A stretch of 64,000 nt of DNA from Ramlibacter pallidus. Its GTDB lineage: Bacteria > Pseudomonadota > Gammaproteobacteria > Burkholderiales > Burkholderiaceae_C. The translations under genes were made by a program, and so were the position numbers. The notes under the pieces are model-generated. The model was not told the origin of the DNA. It ran no database searches and saw only the letters and a program-made list of their open reading frames with translations. Of the stretch, positions 59,289 to 64,000 are shown piece after piece (position 1 is the stretch's first letter; every line of letters starts with the position of its first letter). The DNA is taken from contig NZ_JADDIV010000004.1 in the NCBI RefSeq assembly GCF_015070875.1, positions 620,001-684,000 on the forward strand, given 5' to 3'.

Positions 59289-60614
59289 ATGAGCAACTGG
59301 ACCCACCTCACGCGTGAACAGCAGATCGCCCAGCTGGAAAAGGACTGGGCCGAGAACCCGCGCTGGAAAGGCATCAAGCGCGGCTACAGCGCCGCCGACG
59401 TGGTCAAGCTGCGCGGTTCGCTGCAGATCGAGCACACGCTGGCCAAGCGCGGCGCCGAGAAGCTGTGGACCCTGATCAACACCGAGCCCTTCGTCGCGAC
59501 GCTGGGCGCGCTGACGGGCAACCAGGCCATGCAGCAGGTCAAGGCCGGCCTGAAGGCGATCTATCTCTCCGGCTGGCAGGTCGCCGGCGACGCCAACAGC
59601 AACGGCGAGATGTACCCCGACCAGTCGCTGTACTCGGTGGACTCCGTGCCGAAGGTCGTCAAGAAGATCAACAACACCTTCGCGCGTGCCGACCAGATCC
59701 AGTGGAGCGAGGGCAAGGGCCCGGGCGACGAGGGCTACGTCGACTACTTCGCCCCCATCGTGGCAGACGCCGAAGCCGGCTTCGGCGGCGTGCTGAACGC
59801 CTTCGAGCTGATGAAGGCCATGATCGAGGCAGGTGCCGCCGCGGTGCACTTCGAGGACCAGCTGGCTTCCGTCAAGAAGTGCGGCCACATGGGCGGCAAG
59901 GTGCTGGTGCCGACGCGCGAAGCCGTCGCCAAGCTGGTGGCCGCCCGCCTGGCCGCCGACGTGATGGGCACCCCCACCGTGCTGCTGGCCCGCACGGACG
60001 CGGAAGCCGCGGACCTGGTGACCACCGACGTCGACGAGACCGACAAGCCCTTCCTGACCGGTGAGCGCACGGTGGAAGGCTTCTACCGCACGAAGAAGGG
60101 CTTCGACCAGGCGGTGAGCCGCGGCCTGGCCTATGCCGAGTACGCCGACCTGATCTGGTGCGAGACCGGCACGCCGGACCTGAAGTTCGCCAAGGATTTC
60201 GCGGACGCGATCCACGCCAAGTTCCCGGGCAAGCTGCTGGCCTACAACTGCTCGCCGTCGTTCAACTGGAAGAAGAACCTCGACGACGCCACCATCGCCA
60301 AGTTCCAGAAGGAGCTGGGCGCCATGGGCTACAAGTACCAGTTCATCACGCTGGCCGGCTTCCACAGCCTGAACTACTCGATGTTCGAGCTGGCCCACGG
60401 CTACGCCCGCAACAACATGACGGCCTTCGTCGAACTGCAGCAGAAGGAGTTCGCCGCCGCCGACAAGGGCTTCACCGCCGTGAAGCACCAGCGCGAGGTC
60501 GGCACCGGCTACTTCGACGCCGTGACCACGACGATCGAGGCGCAGTCGTCCACCGCGGCCCTGAAGGGGTCGACGGAAGACGAGCAGTTCTTCGAGGAGA
60601 AGAAGGCCGCCTGA
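59289..60614 (+). CDS. aceA: Isocitrate lyase
   Basis: A 441-residue isocitrate lyase, first enzyme of the glyoxylate shunt, splitting isocitrate into succinate and glyoxylate. The catalytic KKCGHMGGK motif has Cys198. [17 protein letters not shown] and [13 protein letters not shown] are standard active-site segments. The ATG at 59289 is 6 bases after GGAG, and a GTG at 59283 is unlikely. A 235-bp AT-rich control region with paired dyads precedes it. Malate synthase is not in the window. It is monocistronic, with a terminator at 60642. Confidence 0.98.
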
Positions 60615-60641
60615 CCCGCGTTTCCCGGCAGAAGAAGCAGC

Positions 60642-60670
60642 AAGGCCCCGCCCCGGCGGGGCCTTCGCTT
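60642..60670 (+). terminator. Terminator after aceA
   Basis: AAGGCCCCGCC and GGCGGGGCCTT form a long GC stem around a short CC loop, followed by CGCTTTTGG, 28 bp after the aceA stop. Confidence 0.8.
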
Positions 60671-60741
60671 TTGGCGCGGCGGGCTGGACTTCTCCCCCGG
60701 ACGCCCGCTACAGTCGGGCCATCTCAGCAGTGGAGACCGTG

Positions 60742-60939
60742 ATGTCCGCTTCCACCGACGACCGCACCGGCGTGTTCAACCTGCGCGACCTGGGCGGCGC
60801 CCCTTGCCCGGACTGCCACGGCACGGGCGAATTGCGCATCGACAGCGAGAACATCAACGAGCACTTCGAGGTGGAGAAGCAGACCGTCATCACCCAGTGC
60901 GCGCGCTGCGCCGGCACCGGCCGCGTGGCCGCGGGGTAG
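60742..60939 (+). CDS. Small DnaJ-type zinc-finger protein
   Basis: A 65-residue protein with two CxxCxGxG-like motifs, CPDCHGTGEL and CARCAGTGRV, the pattern of one DnaJ zinc-binding unit. No J-domain or other domain is present. The ATG at 60742 is 7 bases after GGAGA. It may chaperone a partner or act in redox. It ends in a TAG that is part of a TAGAAT box, the likely promoter of the thrS leader. Confidence 0.75.
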   Translation: MSASTDDRTGVFNLRDLGGAPCPDCHGTGELRIDSENINEHFEVEKQTVITQCARCAGTGRVAAG

Positions 60940-60942
60940 AAT
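60937..60942 (+). promoter_or_regulatory. Candidate -10 box of the thrS leader
   Basis: TAGAAT, five of six matches to the sigma-70 consensus, begins with the TAG stop of the preceding gene. The -35 region is GC-rich and weak. Transcription would start near 60949, about 28 nt before the leader-peptide ATG. Confidence 0.45.
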
Positions 60943-60976
60943 CGGCGCATCCACGAGCAACAAGGGCGAGAAAGGC

Positions 60977-61027
60977 ATGCTGGTTATGACACCGCGAACT
61001 ACCTCGGAAGGTTCCACGACCCGCTAG
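60977..61027 (+). CDS. thrS leader peptide (16 residues, five threonines)
   Basis: ATG at 60977 opens MLVMTPRTTSEGSTTR, ending at TAG (61025-61027). Threonine codons are at positions 5, 8, 9, 14 and 15: ACA, ACT, ACC, ACG, ACC. GGGCGAG lies 6 bases upstream; an internal ATG at 60986 could also serve. It lies 91 bp before thrS with a terminator in between, the arrangement of ribosome-mediated attenuation, in which threonyl-tRNA shortage stalls the ribosome and lets RNA polymerase continue into thrS. Confidence 0.75.
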   Translation: MLVMTPRTTSEGSTTR

Positions 61028-61032
61028 GGTCG
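61017..61032 (+). promoter_or_regulatory. Hairpin over the end of the thrS leader peptide
   Basis: CGACCC-GCTA-GGGTCG is a perfect 6-bp stem that spans the last two threonine codons and the stop codon. It is the candidate 1:2 hairpin of the attenuator. Its 3' extension (GCGTCGTCGCGCG) can alternatively pair with the 5' arm of the terminator. Confidence 0.55.
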
Positions 61033-61071
61033 CGTCGTCGCGCGTCACCAGTTCTCCCCATCCCCAGACTG

Positions 61072-61098
61072 AAAGCGCGGCTCCCCCGCGCTTTTTTG
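61072..61098 (+). terminator. Attenuator terminator ahead of thrS
   Basis: AAGCGCGG-CTCCC-CCGCGCTT is an 8-bp stem followed by a T-run, 45 bp after the leader-peptide stop and 21 bp before the thrS ATG. There is no other gene it could terminate except the short zinc-finger gene. Confidence 0.8.
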
Positions 61099-61118
61099 TT
61101 GCCTGAACGCATCGCACC

Positions 61119-63026
61119 ATGATCCAGATCACGCTTCCCGACGGTTCCCGACGTGAGTTCCCCGGCCCCATGACGGTGGCCGACGTCGCCGCCTCCATCG
61201 GCCCCGGCCTGGCCAAGGCCGCCATCGCCGGCAAGGTCGACGGCAAGGTGGTCGACACCACGTACACGATCCGCGACAACGCCCAGGTGGCGATCGTCAC
61301 GCCCAAGGACCCGGAGGGGCTGGACGTGATCCGCCATTCGACGGCGCACCTGCTGGCCTATGCCGTCAAGGAGCTGTTCCCGGACGCGCAGGTCACCATT
61401 GGCCCGGTCATCGAGCACGGCTTCTACTACGACTTCGCGTACAAGCGCCCGTTCACGCCGGAGGACCTGGCCGCCATCGAGAAGCGGATGGCGGAACTCG
61501 CGGCGAAGGACGAGCCCGTCACGCGGCGCGTGCTGCCGCGCGACGAGGCGGTGCGGCACTTCCAGTCGATCGGCGAGGCCTACAAGGCCGAGATCATCGG
61601 CAGCATCCCGCAGGGCGAGGAAGTCTCGCTGTACGCCGAGGGCGGCTTCGAGGACCTCTGCCGCGGCCCGCACGTGCCCAGCACGGGCAAGCTGAAGCAT
61701 TTCAAGCTGATGAAGGTGGCCGGCGCCTACTGGCGCGGCGACCACCGCAACGAGATGCTGCAGCGCGTCTATGGCACGGCCTGGGCGACGAAGGAGGAAC
61801 TCCAGCAGTACCTGACGATGCTGGAGGAAGCCGAGAAGCGGGACCACCGCAAGCTGGGCCGCGAGCTCGACCTGTTCCACATCGACGACGTCGCGCCCGG
61901 CGTGGTGTTCTGGCACCCCAAGGGCTGGGCGATCTGGCAGGCGGTGGAGCAGTACATGCGCCAGGTCTACAAGGACACGGGCTACCAGGAGGTGAAGGGC
62001 CCGCAGATCCTGGACCGCAGCCTGTGGGAGAAGACGGGCCACTGGCAGAACTACCGCGAGAACATGTTCACGACGGAGTCGGAGAAGCGCGACTATGCGC
62101 TCAAGCCGATGAACTGCCCCGGCCACGTGCTGATCTTCAAGTCGCAGCTGCGCAGCTACCGCGACCTGCCGCTGCGCTACGGCGAGTTCGGCCAGTGCCA
62201 CCGCAACGAGCCCTCCGGCGCGCTGCACGGGATCATGCGGGTGCGCGGCTTCACGCAGGACGACGGCCATGCCTTCGTCACCGAGGACCAGATCCTGGAC
62301 GAATGCGTGGCGTACACGGCCAAGCTGCAGGAGGTCTACCGCGACTTCGGGTTCACGGACATCCTCTACAAGGTCGCCACGCGGCCGGAAAACCGGGTCG
62401 GTTCCGACGCGCTGTGGGACAACGCGGAACACGCCTGCATGGAGGCGCTGCGCCGTTCCGGGGTGGAGTTCGTCGTCTCGCCGGGCGACGGCGCCTTCTA
62501 CGGCCCGAAGATCGAATACACGCTCAGGGACGCGCTGGGCCGGCACTGGCAGTGCGGCACGATGCAGGTCGACTTCAACACGGCCGAGCGCCTGGGCGCG
62601 GAATATGTCACGGAGACGAGCGGCCGCGCCCACCCGGTGATGCTGCACCGGGCCATCGTCGGCAGCCTCGAGCGTTTTATCGGCATGCTCATCGAGCACC
62701 ACGCCGGCGCCCTGCCGGCCTGGATCGCGCCGGTGCACGCGGTGGTGCTGAACATCACCGGCGGACAGGCGGATTACGCCGAATCAGTGGCCAAAACGCT
62801 GAGGAATCAAGGGCTTAGGGTGGAGCTGGATCTGCGCAACGAGAAGATCACGTATAAAATACGCGAGCATTCGCTGCAGAAGCCGCCCTATCTCCTCGTC
62901 GTTGGCGACAAGGAGAAGGCGGCTGGTGCCGTCGCAGTGCGCGCCCGGGGCAACCAGGACCTGGGGGTGATGTCGCTGGAGGACTTCTCGAAGAGGGTCG
63001 CCGAAGACATCGCCGGCAAGCGCTGA
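61119..63026 (+). CDS. thrS: Threonyl-tRNA synthetase
   Basis: A 635-residue class II synthetase charging tRNA-Thr. Domains in order: TGS (about 1-62), the editing domain (about 63-225, with [17 protein letters not shown] and [12 protein letters not shown]), the catalytic core (about 245-535), with the zinc Cys in PMNCPGHVL and its His and Asp partners further on, and the anticodon-binding domain (about 540-635). It heads thrS-infC-rpmI (with rplT presumably beyond the window), and is preceded by a Thr-rich leader peptide and terminator. Confidence 0.98.
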
Positions 63027-63071
63027 ATCTTACAGGATCATGCCGCAAGCCGCGTGCATCAAGGCGGTCAT

Positions 63072-63088
63072 GCTACGAATATCGTAGC
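63072..63088. promoter_or_regulatory. Perfect dyad in the thrS-infC gap
   Basis: GCTACGA-ATA-TCGTAGC is a 7-bp perfect inverted repeat 26 bp before the infC start codon. It could be an RNA hairpin limiting infC translation or marking a processing site, or a DNA operator. The ribosome-binding site lies outside the stem. Confidence 0.5.
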
Positions 63089-63114
63089 CAACTTTGAATT
63101 GAAGGATTTGGACC

Positions 63115-63723
63115 ATCGCTACTGAATTTCGCGACCGCCGCCAGCGCGAGGAACGCAAGCACCGCCTGAACCGGGAGATCATGGCCCCGGAAGTCCGCCT
63201 GAGCGGACCCAACAACGAGCCCCTGGGCATTGTCAGCCTGGCCGAGGCCCTGCGGATGGCAGGCGAGCTGGACGTCGACCTGGTCGAAATTGCCGCCACT
63301 GCGAATCCGCCGGTCTGCCGGCTGATGGACTACGGCAAGTTCAAGTACCAGGAGCAGAAGAAGGCCGCGGAAGCGAAGGCGAAGCAGACGGTCATCGAGA
63401 TCAAGGAAATCAAGTTCCGCCCGGGCACCGACGACGGTGACTACAACATCAAGATGCGCAACATCCGGCGCTTCCTGGCGGAAGGCGACAAGTGCAAGAT
63501 CACGCTGCGGTTCCGCGGCCGCGAGATCACGCACCAGGAAATCGGCATGGCGCTGCTGCAGCGCATCCGCGACGACCTGGGCGACACGATCATCGTGGAG
63601 CAGTTCCCGAAGCTGGAAGGCCGGCAGATGATCATGATGATCGCGCCGGGCAAGAAGAAGCCGGCGCCCGCGAAGCCCGCGGAAGCCGCGGCGGCACCGG
63701 CGACGACCACGACGTCGTCGTAG
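63115..63723 (+). CDS. infC: Translation initiation factor IF-3 (ATC start)
   Basis: IF-3, 202 residues, keeps ribosomal subunits apart and proofreads start codons. The start is ATC at 63115. There is an in-frame stop at 63100, AAGGA lies 8 bases upstream, and this start gives the family N-terminus [20 protein letters not shown]. An ATG at 63181 would drop 22 conserved residues. The NTD covers about 15-85 ([18 protein letters not shown]), and the CTD (about 95-180) includes [16 protein letters not shown]. The tail ends in an Ala/Thr-rich extension. IF-3 genes often use rare starts so that IF-3 limits its own synthesis. Confidence 0.96.
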
Positions 63724-63887
63724 CAAGTTTCTAAGCCATCACGGTGGGTCGCCGCGGTGGCGGTGAAGGGGAGGCCCCTGGCCTTCCCGGAACCTTCGGG
63801 TTCCGAAACAAAAAGTGGCTCGGGGCCATCAAGGCGCGGGAGTTTCCCGCGACGCCTCACGAGCACAAACGAAGAAGGAGCATGTAC
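63724..63887 (+). promoter_or_regulatory. rpmI leader with hairpins (possible L20 control region)
   Basis: The 164-nt gap between infC and rpmI contains several stem-loops, including CGGAACC-TTC-GGGTTCCG (about 63790-63808) and GCGGGA-GT-TTCCCGC (about 63836-63850). In many bacteria the L20 protein represses rpmI-rplT by binding an RNA structure here. The position fits; the specific structure was not verified. Confidence 0.4.
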
Positions 63888-64000
63888 ATGCCCAAGATGA
63901 AGACCAAGAGCGGAGCCAAGAAGCGCTTCCGCGTCCGTCCCGGCGGGACGGTCAAGCGCGGCCAGGCCTTCAAGCGTCACATCCTGACCAAGAAGTCCAC
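63888..64000 (+). CDS. rpmI: 50S ribosomal protein L35, 5' part (runs off window)
   Basis: The first 37 codons of L35: [20 protein letters not shown], then [16 protein letters not shown], a small basic protein of the large subunit. The ATG at 63888 is 7 bases after AAGGAG, better than the in-frame ATG at 63882, which is 1 base away. The gene continues past 64000; rplT is expected next. Confidence 0.97.

Follow-up and report, generated by a model that had tools for sequence, protein, structure and literature searches.

In Escherichia coli, the synthetase operon pheST is under leader-peptide attenuation through the PheM leader, and the attenuator of the thr operon governs threonine biosynthesis, not the synthetase. 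In Firmicutes, thrS carries a T-box that senses the charging of tRNA-Thr. The accessible part of PMC1183508 places the E. coli thr operon, with eight ACC codons, among the attenuated operons. The E. coli thrS operator acts on the gene considered here and provides feedback on ThrRS supply, with a tRNA-like element to which ThrRS binds and through which translation is repressed (PMC9956033, in the portion of the source available). An earlier sequence-only reading of the present DNA had stated that E. coli thrS is controlled at translation by ThrRS itself. The same gene in Streptomyces lividans TK24 has a threonine leader, thrL, which was found in the 5′ UTR by RNA-seq and read as a threonine attenuator; as far as the accessible text of PMC8079986 goes, this leader (MKRVRPFLETTPGFVPAR) has two Thr, leaderless transcription, one hairpin and no U-run.

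Here we describe a Thr-rich leader upstream of thrS in Ramlibacter pallidus (contig NZ_JADDIV010000004.1) and in its relatives among the Burkholderiales. Positions refer to the window, which is the whole 64,000-nt stretch of DNA that was analysed, and all features lie on its plus strand. The sequence-only reading had proposed ribosome-mediated attenuation by a Thr leader, a proposal that gains comparative support from conserved codons, frame, terminator and mutually exclusive pairings. We consider it very likely that a ribosome-mediated transcription attenuator controls thrS and, as judged from sequence, the element is one that displays the main features of amino-acid leader attenuators. Our literature search found no published Thr leader for thrS in Burkholderiales; an earlier prediction is possible, most likely in surveys that fell outside our search. 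The word thrS does not occur in the main text of the Naville and Gautheret survey, and the accessible part of the Vibrio fischeri leader-peptide paper describes no such leader at thrS.

Leader frame, start codon and possible promoter

From an ATG at 60977, the window contains a 16-codon frame, MLVMTPRTTSEGSTTR, with the five Thr codons named by the sequence-only reading (ACA, ACT, ACC, ACG and ACC) and a TAG stop codon at 61025-61027. The existence of this frame was borne out, and its proposed start at 60977 was not, since the relatives keep the second, in-frame ATG at 60986, which follows GAGAAAGG at a distance of 10 nt. Just 8 of 105 motif-bearing leaders have a further in-frame ATG 9 nt before the conserved start, and in the window this earlier ATG sits only 1 nt past AAGG. 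The start shown by related genomes is therefore the second ATG, and the leader peptide would be MTPRTTSEGSTTR, followed by TAG (60986..61027; 13 codons, five of them Thr), with the 16-codon frame from 60977 as a longer version. The putative ribosome binding site of this peptide, GAGAAAGG (60968..60975), corresponds to a Shine-Dalgarno-like 4-mer that is found 5-18 nt upstream of the conserved ATG in 96 of the 105 motif leaders.

A frame of this kind is rarely produced by chance. When the leader zone of the window was shuffled 4000 times with dinucleotides preserved, three shuffles held an ATG frame with at least five Thr in 7-30 codons, and none held one with that many Thr in no more than 16 codons. 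Thr codon usage in the 105 leaders includes 130 ACA and 112 ACT among 396 codons; the thrS gene of the window uses ACG 27 times and ACC four times for Thr, and ACA and ACT are absent from it. Codon choice within attenuation leaders is discussed in the accessible part of PMC1183508. Thr stands at codon 5 in all 105 motif leaders, which is partly built in by the definition of the motif. The locus thus has a short, putatively translated frame with several cognate codons, as is characteristic of a ribosome-mediated attenuator.

A probable -10 element, TAGAAT (60937..60942), is located 49 nt before the leader ATG. Hexamers matching the -10 box at five or more of six positions occur at the corresponding place in 45 of 104 related leaders (shuffles, 9.6 with a maximum of 17) and in 12 of 100 zones further upstream. 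The distance from the start of the hexamer to the leader ATG is narrowly distributed in the related leaders, with a median of 50 nt and quartiles of 49-51. A consensus scan that needs a -35 element found neither a sigma-70 promoter nor a -35 consensus at the leader. Directly upstream of the leader, a small gene at 60742-60939 encodes CPDCHGTG and CARCAGTG motifs and shares bases of its stop codon with the -10 box.

Terminator and alternative RNA pairings

Between the frame and the gene lies an intrinsic terminator, AAAGCGCGG-CTCCC-CCGCGCTTTTTT (61072..61097), in which strand 3 (GCGCGGC, 61075-61081) and strand 4 (CCGCGC, 61086-61091) are followed by six T. The T-run is separated from the thrS ATG (61119) by 21 nt (61098-61118). 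The terminator was detected by a custom scan and also by folding, and a stock terminator scan did not list one at 61072-61097. Further upstream, strand 1 (CGCGAACTAC, 60993..61002) would pair with strand 2 (GTCGTCGCGC, 61034..61043) when no ribosome covers it, and the GTCGCGC portion of strand 2 (61037-61043) is able to form an antiterminator with strand 3, the structure predicted for the freed RNA. A hairpin, CGACC(C)..(G)GGTCG (61017..61032), spans the stop codon of the leader, and GCGTCGTCGCGCG is located at 61032-61044. The stop-codon hairpin, the terminator 21 nt before thrS and the possible antiterminator are accordingly all present in the window, as the sequence-only reading had said.

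In an alignment of 49 sequences from the genus, the strand 1:2 pairing is kept in 93.2% of cells (5 of 9 pairs invariant), the strand 3:4 terminator in 100% (4 of 8 invariant) and the strand 2:3 antiterminator in 96.9% (5 of 8 invariant); because about half of the pairs never vary, this constancy is weak proof of structure. Both structures are paired in 96% of cells, a value that falls to 29-54% once one side is shifted by 1-3 columns against the other. The stop hairpin covaries in the 49 genus sequences, with columns 38-52 holding G-C in 27, A-U in 10, G-U in 10 and other combinations in 2. Changes on both sides of a pair were seen in 14 cells, versus 5.7 and 6.2 in shuffles, and none of 500 shuffles reached as high. 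The number of pairs changed on both sides was not unusual (136 and 130 of 500 shuffles as high), nor was there a surplus of further pair types (498 and 176 of 500 as high). When no structure was supplied, RNAalifold recovered the terminator, the central part of the stop hairpin and some of the 1:2 pairing, and it also predicted a 3-bp hairpin, GGT with ACC, that encloses the start codon.

Thermodynamic comparisons across 95 motif loci gave a graded picture. The stretch from leader to terminator is barely more stable than shuffled RNA (mean z -0.4) and strand 1 with the linker hardly beats it (mean z -0.8), whereas the linker with strand 3 has a clearer advantage over it (mean z -1.4). A cross-species test of the strand 2:3 duplex was specific in 29 loci lacking the conserved block described below (z -4.8; reversed control -1.0). 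The same test in representatives of the motif loci gave -4.0 against a reversed control of -4.1, and is without force for that set because the control was as strong. The two sites on strand 2 overlap in 91 of the 95 motif loci, a count that has no null and was not taken as evidence.

Folding with a modelled ribosome was computed in the 95 motif loci, which have spacings of 35-150 nt, and in the 29 block-free loci, which were picked by eye for a Thr-rich frame and so cannot measure frequency. For the stalled state, the ribosome was placed on the first Thr codon beyond codon 3. The mean probability that strand 3 pairs upstream in the motif loci was 0.72 in the stalled state, 0.55 with the ribosome at the stop codon and 0.45 with no ribosome, compared with 0.56, 0.50 and 0.61 for shuffled upstream RNA. 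The corresponding values for the block-free loci were 0.72, 0.44 and 0.56 (shuffled: 0.55, 0.50 and 0.60). For the window alone they were 0.76, 0.69 and 0.34. A second calculation, made for the genus with other RNA ends, gave 0.99 for the stall, 0.98 to 0.72 for the stop depending on the assumed ribosome edge, and 0.88 with no ribosome; for the window it gave 1.0, 1.0 to 0.66, and 1.0. Taken together, the contrast between stall and stop is clear over the set, and it is small and dependent on assumptions for this particular leader. Folding and alignment alone thus predict, over the relatives, an exclusive antiterminator that a stall would free, with a small and model-dependent contrast in the window.

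The proposed switch would work as follows. RNA polymerase would start near 60949, as placed by the -10 box, and a ribosome would initiate the 13-codon leader. With plentiful Thr-tRNA, the ribosome would run to the stop codon, strand 2 would be covered or back on strand 1, and with strand 2 occupied strands 3 and 4 would form the terminator, so that transcription stops before thrS. With scarce Thr-tRNA, the ribosome would be expected to stall on ACT-ACC (codons 5-6) and cover strand 1; GTCGCGC could then pair with GCGCGGC, block the terminator and allow thrS to be made, which is the direction of response that we infer.

A leader of this type might instead act mainly on translation, by reinitiation or coupling into thrS and not by termination. 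The window's thrS ATG has, by eye, no clear Shine-Dalgarno sequence, and leader genes near structural genes have been proposed to aid reinitiation in the accessible part of PMC4833913. The distance from leader stop to thrS is 91 nt, however, with the terminator in between, as against a proteobacterial peak of 10-13 bp in that part of the same source, and the exclusive antiterminator pairing is kept. We regard an action mainly on translation as highly improbable.

A conserved block and the spread of Thr-rich leaders

An 18-nt block, GGTTATGACACCGCGAAC (60982..60999), surrounds the leader start codon and is strongly conserved among relatives, being found in many Burkholderiales genera among 80 thrS loci compared. 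In 300 genomes drawn evenly across the order, the block with at most one mismatch occurs in 35, one copy each, and the reversed pattern has no matches; thrS lies downstream of all 35 matches (window included), and the first base of the block is C in 12 of them. In a family sample searched with at most two mismatches, 122 of 150 genomes had a match, only part of which were confirmed upstream of thrS, and the reversed control gave 26 matches, so that some of the family matches are due to chance. The genus sample has the block in 53 of 59 genomes and in 43 of 44 good assemblies. One of the genus genomes, G605, has a second exact copy (L320:972) that is not before thrS and, by eye, adjoins a tRNA-like gene.

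An exact copy of the block is found in 78 of the 105 motif loci, and its 18 bases, four of them non-coding, are near-identical over a wide group. Changes seen in the family sample, where not all copies were confirmed before thrS, include ATG to GTG in two genomes and CGA to CGG in six; both fit coding, as expected for a translated frame. Codons 2-5 are identical in 93 of the 105 loci and GGTT is kept in 90, and this conservation of GGTTATGACACCGCGAAC at synonymous and non-coding positions bears on two further readings. The start region could have a second job, either as a binding site for ThrRS, tRNA or some other factor, or in trans as RNA or as the peptide MTPRT, which we consider rather unlikely; were it so, thrS would respond to Thr-tRNA via the ribosome and also to a second signal. 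The block is also kept in Burkholderia-like loci, in which it pairs with the linker no better than shuffled RNA does. The idea that GGTT serves as an anticodon mimic was dropped, as by eye it has neither a conserved closing stem nor a U33-like base.

The second reading is that the leader RNA is bound by a protein, in the simplest case ThrRS, which controls termination or translation, with the Thr-rich frame being secondary. Besides the block, it can draw on the small hairpin that GGT and ACC form around the start codon in the alignment fold, and on the precedent of E. coli ThrRS repressing its own mRNA via a tRNA-like element (PMC9956033, accessible part). That hairpin, however, has only 3 bp, is invariant in the genus and has one pair fewer in those matches (12 of 35) that carry C as the first base of the block. 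Thr-rich frames of other sequence are still found in 28 of 71 block-free loci. Control by a bound protein in place of a translating ribosome appears quite improbable to us.

These frames were counted in a leader comparison from which L036, L081, L082, L083, L129, L139 and L220 were removed and in which duplicates were merged (211 of 216 kept). A terminator-like hairpin is present in all 105 motif loci and in 73 of the 106 others, and after omission of short or ambiguous zones 95 motif loci and 71 terminator-bearing loci without the block were available. An ATG frame with at least three Thr precedes the terminator in 76 of the former (shuffles: mean 3.4, maximum 12) and in 28 of the latter (mean 2.1, maximum 7); the next residue reaching three is Arg, in 27 motif loci and 22 loci without the block. 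At a threshold of at least four, the counts are 56 for Thr versus seven for Arg in the block-bearing loci, and Thr does no better than Arg (13 versus 13) in the 71 loci without the block. The leaders of other sequence in block-free loci include MSPNYARTTTSSPR, MFKRTTTTRISR, MPRTRTTTGVFSRRG, MNTNTTRTTTTRHT, MFRTRTTTQSC and others.

An alignment across Burkholderiales had been put forward as the check on the attenuator, and in this comparison many Burkholderiales genomes retain the Thr codons, the reading frame, the terminator and the exclusive pairings while the remainder drifts. A case named as a refutation, a terminator kept where the Thr-rich frame has gone, does occur in a minority of the relatives, as the block-free family members show. 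The block is lacking from 28 family genomes, in 24 of which thrS was located, and the thrS start was readable in 23 of 26 block-free family loci. A terminator-like hairpin is kept in 15 of these 23, and 14 of the 15 lack an ATG frame with at least three Thr; no such frame is present in 21 of the 23. Genomes of at most 3.4 Mb make up 24 of the 28 without the block versus 23 of the 122 with a match (Fisher p 4e-11); small genomes thus often lack the frame but retain the hairpin. Several of the loci L263-L288, from family members with mostly small genomes, have a TAAAAT box shortly upstream of the terminator-like hairpin.

The 15 lingering hairpins, 14 of them without the frame, are also what one might expect if the terminator simply ended the upstream gene, the short frame were a product of chance or decay, and thrS were transcribed from another start. 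Against this stand a Thr enrichment far above that of shuffles and the conservation of the ribosome site, start and frame. Moreover, the -10 box lies at a fixed distance before the leader, and in the window within the end of the upstream gene, so that the terminator follows a probable promoter. A mere end to the upstream gene is thus a very unlikely role for the terminator, and attenuation through the Thr leader remains our preferred reading.

Outside the order, 40 thrS upstream stretches from the class yielded four ATG frames with at least three Thr, and two with adjacent Thr codons, as many as in shuffles (1.8). One of the class frames, MSTTTAQR before a terminator, looked real. In another family of the class (L340-L366; the partial locus L367 was omitted), 24 of 27 loci have the leader MSTTTAHR or a variant of it ahead of thrS, against 0.01 in shuffles; this leader has the start gtgcgac-ATG-AGC-ACT-ACC-ACC, a conserved gtgcgacATGAGCACTACC start and, in 18 of the 24, a T-run downstream.

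The thrS operon and comparison with known systems

The gene proposed to be regulated, thrS (61119..63026), encodes a threonyl-tRNA synthetase with 67-83% identity to thrS of the 80 loci. The genes downstream are infC, rpmI, rplT, pheS, pheT and one whose sequence points to IHF alpha. IF-3 genes often use rare start codons, and infC (63115..63723) here probably begins with a rare ATC at 63115, upstream of the listed ATG frame that begins at 63181.

A candidate internal promoter for infC-rpmI-rplT, consists of CTGCGC and TAAAAT separated by 17 nt (62832..62860), the TAAAAT lying within TATAAAAT. Codons 579-581 of thrS (TATAAAATA) fall within the five-codon stretch of highest synonymous AT conservation in the gene, with TAT in 91 and AAA in 92 of 96 sequences where the mean AT3 of thrS is 0.24. 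A TTGCG-like hexamer, represented by CTGCGC in the window, is conserved 17 nt before TAAAAT inside thrS. The consensus scan found no sigma-70 promoter at this internal site. An AACAAGG..TTAG block is also seen upstream of the site (window 62800-62861). The promoter-like site probably serves infC-rpmI-rplT; in E. coli, infC has two promoters inside thrS in addition to the thrS promoter, according to the accessible part of PMC6511841. The sequence-only reading had tied the supply of IF-3 and L35 to threonine status, and while infC and rpmI do lie downstream of thrS, this tie is weakened by a promoter-like site conserved within thrS.

Among described systems, the E. coli thrL leader likewise has a frame rich in Thr codons. 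The E. coli pheST operon uses Phe codons; in the present genome pheS is preceded by a terminator and no Phe-rich frame was noticed before it (L289, 1487-1566 region). This terminator, CAGGGCTAG...CTAGCCCTG-TTTTTTT, lies beyond the window at 1530-1566 of L289 (G000:C4), inside the operon and just upstream of the pheS ATG at 1572, and its 5′ arm could base-pair with CCCCTGTC at 1487. Relative to the Firmicutes T-box, the proposed sensor here is a ribosome on a frame. Rfam searches of window 60000-64000, run with E up to 5, and of 20 related thrS upstream stretches, run at the gathering cut-off, gave no T-box match; the window matches numbered five, all under gathering scores, and those in the related stretches 15, all of them tRNA. 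A tRNA gene is present in the thrS upstream stretch at 15 of 20 loci (L161, L165, L179, L180, L187, L188, L191, L196, L198, L203, L205, L209, L214, L215 and L216), and none was found in the window.

The leader that comes closest in kind, that of S. lividans, belongs to another phylum and has no evident sequence likeness to the Burkholderiales leader, which is richer in Thr codons and has both a ribosome site and a clear terminator. The E. coli thrS operator differs in that here a terminator and a Thr-rich frame precede the gene. A large group of related bacteria thus appears to sense Thr-tRNA by the ribosome at a gene that E. coli ThrRS represses translationally, and a second family carries another type of Thr leader there, with a weaker one in Streptomyces as described in the accessible part of its report. 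If this is so, one control circuit would have been replaced by another at a single gene, with natural variants that keep the terminator without the sensor.
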